NCBI GenBank assembly: GCA_002898855.1
Contig: BEIR01000012.1
Span: 1 to 13,977, forward strand
Source: a bacterium HR41
GTDB taxonomy: Bacteria > Actinomycetota > Thermoleophilia > Solirubrobacterales > Thermoleophilaceae
DNA: 13,977 bases
Direction: 5' to 3'
Shown here: positions 4,006 through 8,453 of the stretch, piece by piece
Numbering within the stretch: the first letter of the stretch is position 1
How the letters are laid out: every line of letters begins with the position of its first letter
Notes under the pieces: model-generated
Database searches by the model: none
What the model saw: the letters and a program-made list of their open reading frames with translations, nothing else
What the model was told of the DNA's origin: nothing
Made by a program: the position numbers and the translations under genes

Positions 4006-5358
4006 TCAGGCGCGTTGGCCCACGAGCGCCGGTGGTGCCGTGGGCGCCAGAAGTCCATCCCACACCGGTTGCGGGACGAACATCCAGGCGTGGCACTCGG
4101 GCCGGTAGAGGCGCGTATCGAGCTCCGGTGTGCGCGCGGGCACTTCGGGCGCATAGCGCTTCGAGCCGATCGTGAAGGTCCACCAGGCGCCCGGATACGT
4201 GGGCACGACGCTCCACGCCACCGCCGTGCGCGGAAAGACCTCGGCCATCGCCTCGCGACAGGAACGGACCGTGTCGGGATGCCAGAAGGGCGACTCGGTC
4301 TGCGCGGCGACAAGACCGTCGTCGGTCAGTACTTCCGCGCAGCGGCGGTAGAAGTCGCTGCCGAACAGGCGCGCCGCCTGCCCGAGCGGATCGGGCAAGT
4401 CGCAGAGGATCACCGCGGGCGCGAAGTCGAGGCTGCCGATCGACGTGAAGGCGTCGCCGGGCAGGAACTCGACGCGCGGGTCGGCGAACGCCGCACGCGC
4501 CCTTTCGAAGTGTCGCTTGGCGAGCTCCACCACGTGTTCGTCGAGCTCGAGCACAGCTACCCGCTCGACCACGTCGTGCTTGAGCACCTCGGCGAGCGTG
4601 TGGCCATCGCCCCCGCCGACGATGACGACGTTGCGCGGTTCGGGATGGGCGTTAAGCGCGGGGTGAACGAGGGCTTCGTGGTAGGCGAAGGAATCGCGCT
4701 CGGTGAGCTGCACGATCTGGTCGAGCGCAAGCACTCGGCCAAGACCGGGGGTTTCGAAAACCACCGCCGACTGGAAAGGCGTGCGCCTCGCCTCGAGCAG
4801 CCGCCGCACGGGATAGAGCGCGCGGATCGGGGAGGCAGGCTCGTGCTCTTCGAACGTCCAGACGCGATCCCCGTGCGCCCCGTCCCGGGCCGATGCATGG
4901 CCGTTCCGCTCGCCGCCGATCACGTCCGTGGCGGTACCGTCGCCGTTCGCGACCGCGCCGTTCGCAACGGCGCCGTTCGCGACCGCACCCTTGGTGACGA
5001 CGCCGTTCGCCTCTACGGCGACGCCGGGCGACCCGCGCTCGACCGCGCGCCGGGCGACCCAGGTGGGTCGGTAAGCGTCGACCATCACCTCGACCATCGC
5101 GTCGAGATCGGTATCGCCGCAGGTGAAGACGTCGATAGCGGCGTAACCGTGTTCCGGCCAGGTGTGCAAGGCGAGGTGGCTCTCGGCGATAACCGCGATG
5201 CCCGAGATGCCCCACGGCGAAAAGCGGTGGACCTCGAGCCGTACGAGCGTCGCCCCGCCCGCCTCGACGGCGCGCTCGAGCGCAGTTCGCGCGAGCTCCT
5301 CATCGTCGAGACCTTGTGCACCCCAGAACTCGCAAAGAACCTGCCGTCCGAGAGCCAT
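4006..5358 (-). CDS. speDE: Fused S-adenosylmethionine decarboxylase (SpeD) and spermidine synthase (SpeE)
   Basis: Bifunctional polyamine enzyme, 450 residues. Residues 1-108 are a class-1b SpeD: self-cleavage at Glu59-Ser60 (AESHLALHTWPEHGY) makes the pyruvoyl group, and His65 and Cys80 keep the spacing of the Thermotoga catalytic residues. A Gly/Ala/Asn-rich linker (109-166) with VANGA repeats follows. Residues 167-436 are an aminopropyltransferase: LTERDSFAYHEAL at 218-230, the decarboxy-SAM site GGGDG at 248-252, Glu271/Asp273, Asp302 and CDLPDP with Asp320 and Asp323, then TYPGAWWTFTIGS. After self-cleavage the large SpeD chain would stay joined to SpeE, so decarboxy-SAM could be passed on directly. 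The ATG at 5358 is fixed by AAAGGAGGTGA six bases upstream, which overlaps the bpsA stop, so translation is probably coupled. Putrescine is the likely acceptor, although agmatine cannot be excluded. The symbol is a composite. Confidence 0.95.
   Translation of the reverse strand: MALGRQVLCEFWGAQGLDDEELARTALERAVEAGGATLVRLEVHRFSPWGISGIAVIAESHLALHTWPEHGYAAIDVFTCGDTDLDAMVEVMVDAYRPTWVARRAVERGSPGVAVEANGVVTKGAVANGAVANGAVANGDGTATDVIGGERNGHASARDGAHGDRVWTFEEHEPASPIRALYPVRRLLEARRTPFQSAVVFETPGLGRVLALDQIVQLTERDSFAYHEALVHPALNAHPEPRNVVIVGGGDGHTLAEVLKHDVVERVAVLELDEHVVELAKRHFERARAAFADPRVEFLPGDAFTSIGSLDFAPAVILCDLPDPLGQAARLFGSDFYRRCAEVLTDDGLVAAQTESPFWHPDTVRSCREAMAEVFPRTAVAWSVVPTYPGAWWTFTIGSKRYAPEVPARTPELDTRLYRPECHAWMFVPQPVWDGLLAPTAPPALVGQRA
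4935..5010 (-). repeat. In-frame 15-bp tandem repeats coding the SpeD-SpeE linker
   Basis: Short tandem units built on GCCGTTCGC(G/A)AC(C/G)GC (plus-strand reading) recur about three times, with a fourth degenerate copy after a break. They encode GAVAN/GAVAN/GAVANGD at residues 124-140 of the fusion. Units of 15 bp keep the reading frame, so the linker can lengthen or shorten by slippage without breaking either enzyme. Confidence 0.75.
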
Positions 5359-5361
5359 CTC

Positions 5362-5372
5362 TCACCTCCTTT
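5362..5372 (-). promoter_or_regulatory. Shine-Dalgarno of speD-speE overlapping the bpsA stop
   Basis: AAAGGAGGTGA on the minus strand. The TGA at its end is the stop codon of bpsA, and the ATG of the fusion starts three bases later. This long match to the 16S tail points to strong, coupled translation. Confidence 0.85.
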
Positions 5373-6339
5373 CCTTGCTCGCGATTGCGAAGTAGTGCTC
5401 GTCGGCGATCGGGTCGCCGGGGAGCGGGCGCGGGTTGCGCGGCTCGAAGCCAGCGAGCGTCTCGAGCCGCCACAGCGCCGACCGGTACCACGGCGCCCGC
5501 GCGGCGCGCGTGAACGCCGGGTGGCCGTACGCGCGGGCCTCCTCCAACTGTGTCGGCCAGTTGTCGTAGAAGCCCTGCTCGGGGATGACAGCGCTCAACA
5601 CGACCGGCTGCGCCGTCAACCACGCCTGCAGTTCGCGCCACTTCTCGTAGTCCGACTCGACGAGCGTGACGCCGAAGTATCCGACGCTGCCGGGGCCGGG
5701 CGCGAGCGCCGAGAGCCCGCGCCCGACGAACATCCGCAACCCAGCGCGCGTCTCGGAGGGGTCGCAGACGAAGACGTCGTAGGCACCGCGATGGCGAGCG
5801 GGCAGCGCCTTGCGCAGGTCGTGGGTGTGCACCTCGATCGGCAGGCTGTGGCGCTCGGCGAGATCCGCGATGAAGGCGGTCAAGCGCTCGTCGATCTCGA
5901 AGACGGCGATCTGCGCCGGTGCGCCGGTGAGCGCCAGAGCGATCGACAGCAGGTCGTCGTCGCCCATAATCGCGAATCGCGCCCCCTCGACGAGGTCGCC
6001 GAAACGCGCCATCTCGCGCAGCCGGCCCATCAGGCTGTCGACAGTCAGGTGGCCCTGGTCGTAGGCGTCGGTGGCGTGCGGCCGCTGCGCGACGAGCCGC
6101 AGGTAGCGGCGCTTCAGAGCCGCAAGCGCGCGGCTATCGAGGGCGACGGTGCGGGGGGCGTGCTTGCGGCCTGCGGGCGTAAGGGTCAGCCGGCCAGGAC
6201 GAGAACGGACAAGGCCGCGCTCCTCGAGATCGCGCAGCATCCCGACGAGCACGGGAAAAGGTACCCGCGCCCGACCCGCCACTTCCCAGGGGTCGGCGGT
6301 GTCGCGCAACAGCGCGAGAAGACGTTCTTCGGGATGCAG
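5362..6339 (-). CDS. bpsA: Branched-chain polyamine synthase, N4-bis(aminopropyl)spermidine synthase family
   Basis: Aminopropyltransferase of the BpsA (DUF43) family, which adds aminopropyl groups from decarboxy-SAM to the internal nitrogen of spermidine to give tertiary/quaternary branched polyamines in thermophiles. In the longest frame (TTG at 6450) residues 40-100 are a winged-helix domain (EERLLALLRD...LEERGLVRSRPGRLTLT). The catalytic domain has YDQGH (130-134), the signature GDDD (163-166), FEID (184-187) and the active-site variant DPSET (230-234; the archaeal form is usually DPPxT). Start: a perfect AAAGGAGGTGA lies inside that frame and points to CTG at 6339, five bases past GGAGG, giving about 325 residues. 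GTG at 6345 overlaps the Shine-Dalgarno, and TTG at 6450 has no Shine-Dalgarno. It lies directly before speD-speE, which supplies its donor. Family call strong; product inferred. Confidence 0.9.
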   Translation of the reverse strand: MHPEERLLALLRDTADPWEVAGRARVPFPVLVGMLRDLEERGLVRSRPGRLTLTPAGRKHAPRTVALDSRALAALKRRYLRLVAQRPHATDAYDQGHLTVDSLMGRLREMARFGDLVEGARFAIMGDDDLLSIALALTGAPAQIAVFEIDERLTAFIADLAERHSLPIEVHTHDLRKALPARHRGAYDVFVCDPSETRAGLRMFVGRGLSALAPGPGSVGYFGVTLVESDYEKWRELQAWLTAQPVVLSAVIPEQGFYDNWPTQLEEARAYGHPAFTRAARAPWYRSALWRLETLAGFEPRNPRPLPGDPIADEHYFAIASKERR

Positions 6340-6454
6340 CGTCACCTCCTTTGTGGACTCGGAAGCGCAGCAGCCTGCGCCGCAGACTGGCGGCACTTGC
6401 GACCGGGAAACCGAGACCGGCGGCGGGCGCGCCGGCCACAAGGTCTTCAAGGTA
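6340..6454 (-). promoter_or_regulatory. Leader between dioxygenase gene and bpsA, with Shine-Dalgarno 6342-6352
   Basis: If bpsA starts at 6339, these 115 bases are untranslated. They contain AAAGGAGGTGA at 6352-6342, identical in all 11 bases to the speD-speE Shine-Dalgarno. A 6-bp hairpin (GCGCAG/CTGCGC) lies near 6365-6380 and there are further GC-rich inverted segments. No riboswitch class is recognised. The same stretch can be read in frame as a 37-codon Pro/Cys-rich N-terminal extension (PVCGAGCC) that does not look like a folded domain. Confidence 0.5.
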
Positions 6455-7390
6455 CTAGCTGCGCGCTTTTCCCGTCCGCTCGGCGCGCGGGTCGGGCAGT
6501 GGTTTGAGCGTTCGCTCGAGCCGTTCGCGCAGCGGCTCGAACCGCGGCGGCAAGCTCAGACGCTCGCCCAACCGGTCGGGCGGCTCGTCGACCGCGAAAC
6601 CCGGTCCGAGCGTCGCGATCTCGAACAGCACGCCGCTCGGCTCGCGGAAGTAGATCGAGCGGAAGTAGTGGCGATCGATGATCGGCGTGACGGCTGCACC
6701 TCCCCCTAGCGCGCGCTCGCGCCAGCGGCCGTGATCCTCGGGCCGCGACGCGAACGCGACGTGGTGAACGGTGCCCGCACCGGGCACGGGCGGTGTGTCG
6801 GGCGGCTCGTCGTAGGCGTAGAAGCCGGAACGCTCTTCGCCCCCGACGAGCCACTGGTGCGGTCCGCTCGGTTGGAAAGCTAGATGCTCCTCGAGTAGCG
6901 GGCGACTCCGTTCGGGATCGGAGGCGTAGGCGCGAACACCGTGGAAGCCCTGGAGAGCGTGCTCGATGGGGACGTCGGGGGCGCGCGCCACTAGCGGCCG
7001 CTCGCCGCCGTCGTAGACGACAAGCTCGTGGCGGAGCCCCTCGGGATCGTGGAACGAGAGAACATCGCCGGAGCGCTCCGCCGTGAACCCCTCGCGCTCC
7101 AACCGCTCGCCCCAGAAATCGAGCGAACCCGGCGAGCCGACACGCCAGACGACGGTGTGGACCATCCCTTCGCCGGCGCTACCGCGGGGCGTGCCCGGAT
7201 ACTCGAAGAAAGTGATGTCGGCGCCAGCACTGCCCTCCTCGTCGGCGTAGAAGAGGTGGTAAACGGTCGGGTCGTCCTGGTTGACCGTCCGTTTCACCAG
7301 CCGCAGCCCGAGCGTGCCGGCGTAGAAGCGGACGTTGCGCGGTGCGTCCGCGCAGATCGCTGTCACGTGATGGATCCCCTCGAGCTTCAC
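6455..7390 (-). CDS. VOC-family ring-cleaving dioxygenase (MhqO/LinE-like)
   Basis: Cytoplasmic extradiol-type dioxygenase of the vicinal-oxygen-chelate (glyoxalase) superfamily, 311 residues, the standard two-module size for the MhqO/YdfO hydroquinone dioxygenase group. It probably cleaves a hydroquinone or similar aromatic ring using Fe(II). The first module starts with GIHHVTAICADAPRNVRFY, with His7/His8 as likely metal ligand. The second carries GTVHHVAFAS (metal His) and ends in GVLFEIATLGPGFAVDEP, whose Glu is the expected third ligand. YFREPSGVLFEIAT is typical of this group. The start is GTG at 7390 with AAGGGAG upstream at good spacing. It runs in the same direction as bpsA, 115 bases before the preferred bpsA start, but no functional link to polyamines is evident. 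Substrate unknown. Confidence 0.88.
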   Translation of the reverse strand: MKLEGIHHVTAICADAPRNVRFYAGTLGLRLVKRTVNQDDPTVYHLFYADEEGSAGADITFFEYPGTPRGSAGEGMVHTVVWRVGSPGSLDFWGERLEREGFTAERSGDVLSFHDPEGLRHELVVYDGGERPLVARAPDVPIEHALQGFHGVRAYASDPERSRPLLEEHLAFQPSGPHQWLVGGEERSGFYAYDEPPDTPPVPGAGTVHHVAFASRPEDHGRWRERALGGGAAVTPIIDRHYFRSIYFREPSGVLFEIATLGPGFAVDEPPDRLGERLSLPPRFEPLRERLERTLKPLPDPRAERTGKARS

Positions 7391-7469
7391 CGCTCTCCCT
7401 TTCCTGGTCGCGCCCTACTGGAGGGCTTGGCCCGCACGCCCCGGCGCAGACGTCGCGGCCGCGCGCGAG

Positions 7470-7542
7470 TGCGCCCGGCAGGAGTCGAACCTGCGGCCTC
7501 CACCTCCGCAGGGTGGCGCTCTATCCGCTGAGCTACGGGCGC
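7470..7542 (-). tRNA. tRNA-Arg (anticodon GCG, unusual in bacteria)
   Basis: The minus strand forms a complete 73-nt cloverleaf. The acceptor GCGCCCG/CGGGCGC is identical to the other arginine tRNA here. The D stem is GCTC/GAGC with A20 in AGCGGATA. The anticodon stem CCACC/GGTGG encloses loop CTGCGGA, and the T stem GCAGG/CCTGC encloses TTCGACT. The anticodon is GCG, reading CGC and CGU. C35 and G36 plus A20 support arginine identity. Discriminator A; no encoded CCA. Most bacteria read these codons only with ACG (inosine) tRNA, which this genome also has. Confidence 0.93.
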
Positions 7543-7614
7543 TCGTGCCAGTGGTACGAGGCTAGCGATCGCCAGGTGCGCCCCCCGCCGGGCGCTCCGT
7601 CGTGTGCACAGTTC

Positions 7615-7625
7615 GATGTAACACC
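7615..7625 (+). promoter_or_regulatory. Dyad operator copy 1, upstream of the MerR gene
   Basis: GATGTAACACC, preceded by TTC. It matches the interrupted dyad GATGT-n-ACATC at nine of ten arm positions. It lies 18 bases before the start codon and directly upstream of the putative -10 TACCCT, where a regulator could act on its own promoter. It is one of three such sites in the window, all at gene starts. Confidence 0.5.
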
Positions 7626-7631
7626 GTCGGA

Positions 7632-7643
7632 TACCCTTGCAGT
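7632..7643 (+). promoter_or_regulatory. -10 element giving a leaderless MerR transcript
   Basis: TACCCT (7632-7637) is followed by six bases and then the GTG at 7644, about where transcription would begin. No Shine-Dalgarno precedes the GTG. No clear -35; the operator copy occupies the spacer region. Confidence 0.4.
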
Positions 7644-8453
7644 GTGGAAGCGGCTAACGGCGCACGGAAACGTTCCGGCGATGTAGAGATCGCCGACGAG
7701 CGCAGCGAGCTGACGATCGACGAGCTTGCTCGGCGCACCGGCATGACCATGCGCAACATCCGCGCTTACCAGTCGCGCGGACTGCTACCGCCACCGGAGG
7801 TGCGCGGCCGAACCGGCTACTACGGCCCCGATCACGTCGCGCGTATCGAACTGATCAAGGAGCTTCAGGCCGACGGCTTCAAGCTCGACCACATCCGCCG
7901 CCTGTTGGACGGAGCCCGTGGTTCGAGCCACGAGGTGTTGCGCTTCACGCGGATGTTGCGGATGCCGTTCGGCGAGGAGCGCACCGAGATCGTCACAGTC
8001 GAGGACCTTGCCGAGCGTTGGGGTACACGCGACGCCGCCTTGCTCGAACGCGCAGTCAAGCTCGGACTGCTGCGCCCGCTCGGCGACGACCGCTACGAGG
8101 ACGCGAGCCCGACGCTCAGCCGGGCTGGCCGCGAGCTGGTTCAGCTCGGCATCCCGATCAGCGAGGCGCTCACGCTCCTCGAGTCGGTCAAGCGCCACGC
8201 CGACGCGATCGCACGCAGTTTCGTGAAGCTGTTCCTGGAACACATTTGGCTGCCGTTCGAACGCGAGGGCACACCGGACGAGCGCTGGCCGGAGATCGCC
8301 GACGTGCTCGAGCGTCTGCGACCGCTCGCCTTGGAGTCGGTGACGGCGGTCTTCCGTCTGGCCATGACTGAGGCGACGGAGCGCGCGTTTGGCCGCGAAA
8401 TCCAGCGTTTCCAGCGGCAGCTTCGACAAGAGGAGCGACGGGCGCGCGCCTGA
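7644..8453 (+). CDS. MerR-type transcriptional regulator with a second MerR-like unit
   Basis: DNA-binding regulator of 269 residues. Residues 22-90 are a canonical MerR winged helix (LTIDELARRTGMTMRNIRAY, then GLLPPP, RTGYYGPDHVARI and DGFKLDHIRRLL). Residues 117-181 repeat the same plan (VTVEDLAERWG, LGLLRP, a short wing with RY, LVQLGIPISEALTLL), so the chain may carry two MerR-like DNA-binding units. Residues 182-269 are helical and charged, with no metal-binding Cys, probably for dimerisation or ligand sensing. GTG at 7644 is chosen because it falls six bases after a -10-like hexamer; a GTG at 7602 would place the operator inside the coding region. It converges with the SCP2 gene, and the shared operator suggests it may control itself, the SCP2 gene and the acyl-CoA dehydrogenase. 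Family certain; target set inferred. Confidence 0.88.
   Translation: MEAANGARKRSGDVEIADERSELTIDELARRTGMTMRNIRAYQSRGLLPPPEVRGRTGYYGPDHVARIELIKELQADGFKLDHIRRLLDGARGSSHEVLRFTRMLRMPFGEERTEIVTVEDLAERWGTRDAALLERAVKLGLLRPLGDDRYEDASPTLSRAGRELVQLGIPISEALTLLESVKRHADAIARSFVKLFLEHIWLPFEREGTPDERWPEIADVLERLRPLALESVTAVFRLAMTEATERAFGREIQRFQRQLRQEERRARA

Follow-up and report, generated by a model that had tools for sequence, protein, structure and literature searches.

Two adjoining genes on the minus strand of the window, the 13,977-nucleotide stretch analysed here (GenBank contig BEIR01000012.1), encode predicted polyamine enzymes. The upstream gene, bpsA (5362..6339), encodes a 325-residue protein of the BpsA family of branched-polyamine synthases. 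The downstream gene, speD-speE (4006..5358), encodes a 450-residue fusion of an S-adenosylmethionine (AdoMet) decarboxylase (AdoMetDC), SpeD, and an aminopropyltransferase, SpeE. Only three bases lie between the bpsA stop codon and speD-speE. The ribosome-binding site of speD-speE, AAAGGAGGTGA (5362..5372, minus strand), lies within the end of bpsA and takes in its TGA stop. This overlap with the final codons and the stop makes translational coupling of the two genes likely. An earlier reading of this DNA from its sequence alone (the sequence-only reading) had called the locus compact and coupled, and the gap and the overlapping site agree with it. The residues it assigned to the Glu59-Ser60, His65, Cys80, GGGDG, CDLPDP, GDDD, and DPSET motifs are also correct.

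The bpsA product matches BpsA_C (PF01861) at 1.7e-59, with 201.5 bits against a curated cut-off of 27, and this family match is far beyond chance. In the PDB it matches four distinct sequences. Three are BpsA entries; the fourth, 2qm3 from Pyrococcus furiosus, is labelled a ‘predicted methyltransferase’. The GDDD motif (residues 126-129; 5953..5964) contains Asp128 and Asp129, which align with Asp159 and Asp160 of Thermococcus kodakarensis BpsA (Tk-BpsA), and Asp193 of the DPSET motif (residues 193-197; 5749..5763) aligns with Asp225. In total, the six catalytic and acceptor residues named for Tk-BpsA (D159, D160, D225, E259, Y290, and Y316) are identical in the window protein. An acidic C-terminal tail, DPIADE (residues 309-314; 5398..5415), is the putative counterpart of the flexible Tk-BpsA tail that carries the aminopropyl group. 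By our reading of the aligned tails, three of five positions are acidic. The roles of the Tk-BpsA residues and tail are those given in the available text of a 2026 review (PMC12979288). The BpsA homologue proposed by the sequence-only reading is thus borne out by the domain match, GDDD, and the acceptor residues. The solved enzymes of T. kodakarensis (5xnc, 5xnf, 5xnh) and Thermus thermophilus (6j27, 6j28) share with the window protein PF01861, GDDD, DPxE, the acceptor residues, the presence of an acidic tail, and the fold over residues 69-321 of the window protein. The window protein differs in belonging to another clade, in lacking a CxxC element, in its DPSET sequence, in having fewer acidic tail residues, and in being only about 36% identical in the structural match. 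DPSET had been suggested to alter specificity, which does not hold up. The third residue of the motif varies (P in 58 rows, L in 40, T in 29, S in 27, V in 22, and others in 2, among 178 partly redundant rows), and the solved Thermus BpsA carries DPVEG at this place.

The bpsA start is assigned to a CTG codon at 6339. The ribosome-binding site AAAGGAGGTGA (6342..6352, minus strand) ends two bases ahead of it, and site and spacing are the same in another genome of this species and in Thermoleophilum album. An alternative GTG start at 6345 would fall within this site. Gene calls for the ten next-nearest homologues (P0003-P0012, at 53-64% identity) all begin with Met or Val in the alignment column of the CTG. 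Given the spacing kept in three Thermoleophilum genomes and the aligned homologue starts, CTG is probably the likelier start. The CTG under its strong ribosome-binding site (window 6337-6352) is common to the three genomes.

The fusion begins with a class 1b SpeD domain (about residues 1-110; 5029..5358), recognised by Pfam (AdoMet_dc, 1.5e-31), by NCBIfam (SAM_DCase_Bsu, 113.2 against a cut-off of 75.65), and in the structure model. It retains Ser60, His65, and Cys80, required for self-processing and catalysis, and the sole Pro of the central motif. A conserved Pro marks true AdoMetDC according to PMC10407285; equating it with this residue is our reading. A disguised ornithine or arginine decarboxylase was considered for SpeD and is not favoured because the AdoMetDC pattern is intact. 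The SpeE domain (about residues 166-450, with the stop codon; 4006..4863) matches PF17284 (Spermine_synt_N, 2.2e-7) and PF01564 (Spermine_synth, 1.4e-48) and has both GGGDG (residue 248; 4603-4617) and the DxxDP motif as CDLPDP (residue 319; 4387-4404). Between the domains lies a low-complexity linker with VANGA repeats (about residues 111-165; 4864..5028), which is modelled as disordered, with block predicted local distance difference test (pLDDT) values of 31-62 over residues 111-160. By our domain cut, it is 62 residues long in the window and 29 in T. album, whose fusion has the same layout. Two intact domains in one chain confirm the SpeD-SpeE fusion. Cleavage at the predicted self-processing site, Glu59-Ser60 (5179..5184), would leave SpeE attached to the pyruvoyl chain, an arrangement in which the sequence-only reading saw a possible channelling of decarboxylated AdoMet.

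The gene pair recurs in the same order in all three Thermoleophilum genomes. The window comes from a genome of 1.6 Mb in 285 contigs (G000, 72% complete); the others are one of the same species on a single contig (G146, 95% complete; locus L003) and that of T. album (G001; locus L002). Its presence in G146 and G001 argues that the pair is no assembly artefact, and the open frames around the locus in G146 follow the same order, by length, as in the window. Along its full length, the fusion of G001 is identical to P0089, a protein listed by NCBI under Thermoleophilum album. The apparent actinobacterium of the sequence-only reading is accordingly a Thermoleophilum. BpsA is absent from the 28 other genomes of the family, whose completeness varies. 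Across the class, 18 of 399 genomes match PF01861, 14 of them above the cut-off, with at most 131.9 bits outside the genus and 202-226 within it. Thermoleophilum therefore probably gained these genes by transfer. The nearest BpsA with an organism name, 55% identical to that of the window, is labelled Dormibacteraeota (P0011); the BpsA tree shows no difference between it and L052, a metagenome-assembled genome (MAG) labelled Bacillota.

The window BpsA belongs to a clade whose genes are habitually coupled to speD. A contig scan with the window BpsA alone as query gave no match; an alignment query succeeded, and the best 80 of at least 437 confirmed BpsA relatives provided locus contexts. In a quick tree of 148 BpsA rows (leaving out P0001, P0041-P0048, and P0054-P0075), the window falls among 55 rows that form a starred group, and neither Tk-BpsA nor the Thermus enzyme is in it. 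A more careful tree, built on 55 selected rows, repeats this placement, with support of 83/97 when the deep row L056 is included and 97/92 when it is left out. Context is available for 25 clade loci, comprising 23 of the 80 named loci and the two other Thermoleophilum loci. In 24 of these, speD is directly 3′ of bpsA or fused to it; L057 has no speD. At 13 loci, speD homology starts no more than six bases beyond the final sense codon of bpsA, and in two of these, both Thermoleophilum, speD is fused to speE. At the other 11, all Chloroflexota by title, BpsA and SpeD form one protein. The acidic stretch that carries the aminopropyl group in Tk-BpsA precedes the SpeD join in the eight of these 11 fusions that were viewed. 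Outside the clade, two of the 57 named loci (L072 and L109) have speD within 150 bases downstream, a further 14 have it within 1.5 kb, and another three have it upstream. On the same strand of the examined stretch, 38 of the 57 have none, although some contigs are short and the neighbour may lie beyond their ends. A SpeD-SpeE fusion adjoins bpsA in 3/3 Thermoleophilum genomes and at none of the 80 named loci.

PF01564 (SpeE) was searched in 25 genomes behind the loci, 21 of them of the clade and most of them MAGs of unstated completeness. It is unmatched in four of the five clade Bipolaricaulota genomes searched (L059, L061, L062, and L115; L058 was outside the search), and the fifth, L060, matches only in an 898-residue frame. 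In L053-L056 the matches lie only in frames of at least 734 residues. All five Thermoflexus-type genomes (L063, L066, L068, L077, and L085) have an ordinary SpeE scoring 152.7-156.9 bits, which counts against a general loss of SpeE in the clade. An ordinary SpeE is also present in L052, L087, L090, and L103. In a quick SpeE tree, which kept 105 of 142 rows and left out the actinobacterial-type fusions P0104-P0140, Thermoleophilum lies in a starred group of 40 rows together with free SpeE (one, P0152, called Dormibacteraeota) and other SpeD-SpeE fusions. The quick SpeD tree (122 columns) resolves poorly. Thus, an independent fusion in Thermoleophilum and descent from those fusions fit the trees alike.

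The components of this locus are known separately. Functional AdoMetDC-aminopropyltransferase fusions occur in Pelagibacter (PMC11107197) and in a delta-proteobacterium and Krumholzibacteria (PMC12803844), where they work in E. coli deletion strains. They share with the Thermoleophilum protein the SpeD-SpeE order and intact motifs in both domains. However, no BpsA partner is mentioned, and ‘BpsA’ occurs 0 times in the available text of either paper. The bpsA-speD pairs of Bipolaricaulota and other MAGs, and the BpsA-SpeD fusions of Thermoflexus and other Chloroflexota, share the BpsA clade and the order of bpsA then speD. In these lineages, SpeD either stands alone or is joined to BpsA, whereas the Thermoleophilum SpeD is joined to SpeE. 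The window bpsA is followed directly by speD-speE, whereas no SpeD match surrounds two Thermococcus loci (L117 and L123). Bacterial fusions of AdoMetDC and aminopropyltransferase were reportedly described by Green et al. in 2011, to go by the title. A 1992 paper by Hamana is likewise said, by its title alone, to concern novel branched polyamines in Thermoleophilum, which would put this chemistry on record before these genes and agrees with the sequence-only reading. New here are the bpsA/speD-speE pairing in Thermoleophilum, the BpsA-SpeD fusion proteins, and the BpsA clade coupled to SpeD. The open-licence literature searched yielded no paper on the polyamine genes of Thermoleophilum or on fusions of BpsA with SpeD. 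The available text of the 2026 review contains none of ‘Thermoleophil-’, ‘actinobac-’, or ‘fusion’ in a word search (PMC12979288).

The two genes most likely constitute a branched-polyamine unit of the thermophile Thermoleophilum, and are candidate genes for the compounds of the 1992 title. In the proposed mechanism, the fusion would cleave itself between Glu59 and Ser60, and the SpeD domain would supply decarboxylated AdoMet (dcSAM). The SpeE domain, still on the pyruvoyl chain, would use dcSAM to convert a diamine, most simply putrescine, to a triamine, for example spermidine. BpsA, which probably shares its transcript with the fusion, would then place one or two aminopropyl groups on an inner nitrogen. 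We infer a relay like that of Tk-BpsA, in which the group would pass from dcSAM to the acidic tail and on to the polyamine, giving tertiary and quaternary branched products.

Several observations weigh against this assignment. Two of the five acidic tail positions are non-acidic in the window BpsA, no NCBIfam model matches the protein, and it lacks the CxxC element found between the N- and C-terminal domains in 15 of 27 aligned rows. The whole-chain Foldseek superposition of its model reaches only a TM-score of 0.68 with a root-mean-square deviation of 17 Å, which suggests that the small N-terminal domain is differently placed, or misplaced in the model. The SpeE models of NCBIfam stay below their cut-offs on the fusion (PRK00811, 253.2 against 260; TIGR00417, 215.9 against 249.55). 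No measured activity was found for any member of the window BpsA’s clade, and the careful tree puts the protein outside the Thermococcus and Thermus clades. The sequence-only reading had held that a phylogenetic position outside functional BpsA would count against it. On that point the result is divided: the protein falls outside both solved clades, yet it keeps the catalytic residues of the solved enzymes. Sharing a clade with an activity-measured enzyme was not treated as defining, because the Tk and Thermus enzymes themselves sit in different clades.

The last adverse point is the lack of a convincing diamine source in Thermoleophilum among the families searched. In the alkane-containing mineral medium that supports growth of T. 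album, there would be no diamines to import. PF00491 (agmatinase), PF01862, and PF04371 are each unmatched in all three genomes. NCBIfam identifies the PF02784 matches of G001 and G146 as LysA; G000 has no such match. PF01276 matches one short AAT-fold decarboxylase per genome (L144, L145, and L146), which in G146 is encoded close to leuS and competence-type genes. Neither the G146 nor the G001 copy reaches the cut-off of any NCBIfam decarboxylase model, and the protein has very many relatives (6614 of 7999 scored). Actinobacterial proteins of this kind are argued, in the available text of PMC8503589, to be probably not polyamine enzymes. This protein and LysA are the only decarboxylases found that might form a diamine. 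The two-gene route from putrescine put forward earlier is thus incomplete at its first substrate. With no obvious source in two 95%-complete genomes, the missing step becomes testable.

A broader proposal, which we regard as speculative, is that this bacterial BpsA clade works as a physical unit with SpeD, in which SpeD would pass dcSAM to the flexible acidic tail of BpsA. The unit would be one chain in Chloroflexota, with SpeD joined at the acidic tail, two coupled genes in Bipolaricaulota, and a three-activity complex in Thermoleophilum, where SpeD is tied to SpeE. In clade lineages without SpeE, BpsA may be the sole aminopropyltransferase. The natural BpsA-SpeD and SpeD-SpeE fusions offer a means of testing donor channelling.

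The same genes could instead serve other chemistry, with an end product other than N4-bis(aminopropyl)spermidine. The clade’s BpsA might make a linear long-chain product or branch a different acceptor, or SpeE might aminopropylate agmatine. The separate clade, its lack of the CxxC element, and the reduced acidic tail would suit such a change, and the C-terminal region governs the product ratio (PMC12979288). A section heading in PMC11107197 states that ‘Most spermidine synthases are N1-aminopropylagmatine synthases’, which motifs cannot distinguish. However, all six named residues are kept, and the three Thermoleophilum genomes have no PF00491 agmatinase able to process aminopropylagmatine; we consider this alternative unlikely. 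A methyltransferase or other AdoMet-dependent role for the BpsA-like protein, with an incidental speD-speE neighbourhood, is highly improbable: the Rossmann fold is common to methyltransferases and some sources still label homologues as predicted methyltransferases, but GDDD and every acceptor residue are kept and 24 of 25 clade loci with context couple the gene to speD, the maker of BpsA’s donor.

Further observations concern relatives of the two genes. The single proteins with BpsA followed by SpeD in Thermoflexus and other Chloroflexota (L063, L066, L067, L068, L077, L078, L085, L087, L090, L103, and L130) have about 500 residues, and P0023 and P0027 are built likewise. At six of the 11 loci (L067, L078, L087, L090, L103, and L130), the fusion is succeeded by one or two more BpsA-like genes. 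The SpeD beside bpsA in L053, L054, and L055 seemingly has Ser at the catalytic Cys position (DIYSS). Opposite the bpsA-speD pair of L052, a frame (6298-7871, minus strand) has SpeE after about 130 residues, and after this frame comes a second one that is AdoMet_dc-like (68 bits). Within the class, family f7 (L004, L005, L007, L011, and L014) has a divergent BpsA-like gene directly behind an altered SpeD, with Gln for the cleavage-site Glu and Tyr for the catalytic Cys (AQSH...LLSYG). In L004, L005, and L007, the BpsA-like protein has Arg at the Glu259 position and Tyr for the Glu of DPxET. These f7 pairs probably have another activity.

The fusion P0088 has a SpeD domain 100% identical to that of T. 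album and a SpeE domain only 65% identical to it (73% to that of the window). It is apparently on one contig with BpsA P0002, which differs from T. album BpsA by one residue; the longest contig recorded for either protein measures 7782 bases. The mosaic apparently reflects a SpeE-domain swap between strains or a chimeric assembly. In the window, a gene of the glyoxalase/dioxygenase superfamily (6455-7390, minus strand) lies 115 bases upstream of bpsA, a position kept in T. album and G146.
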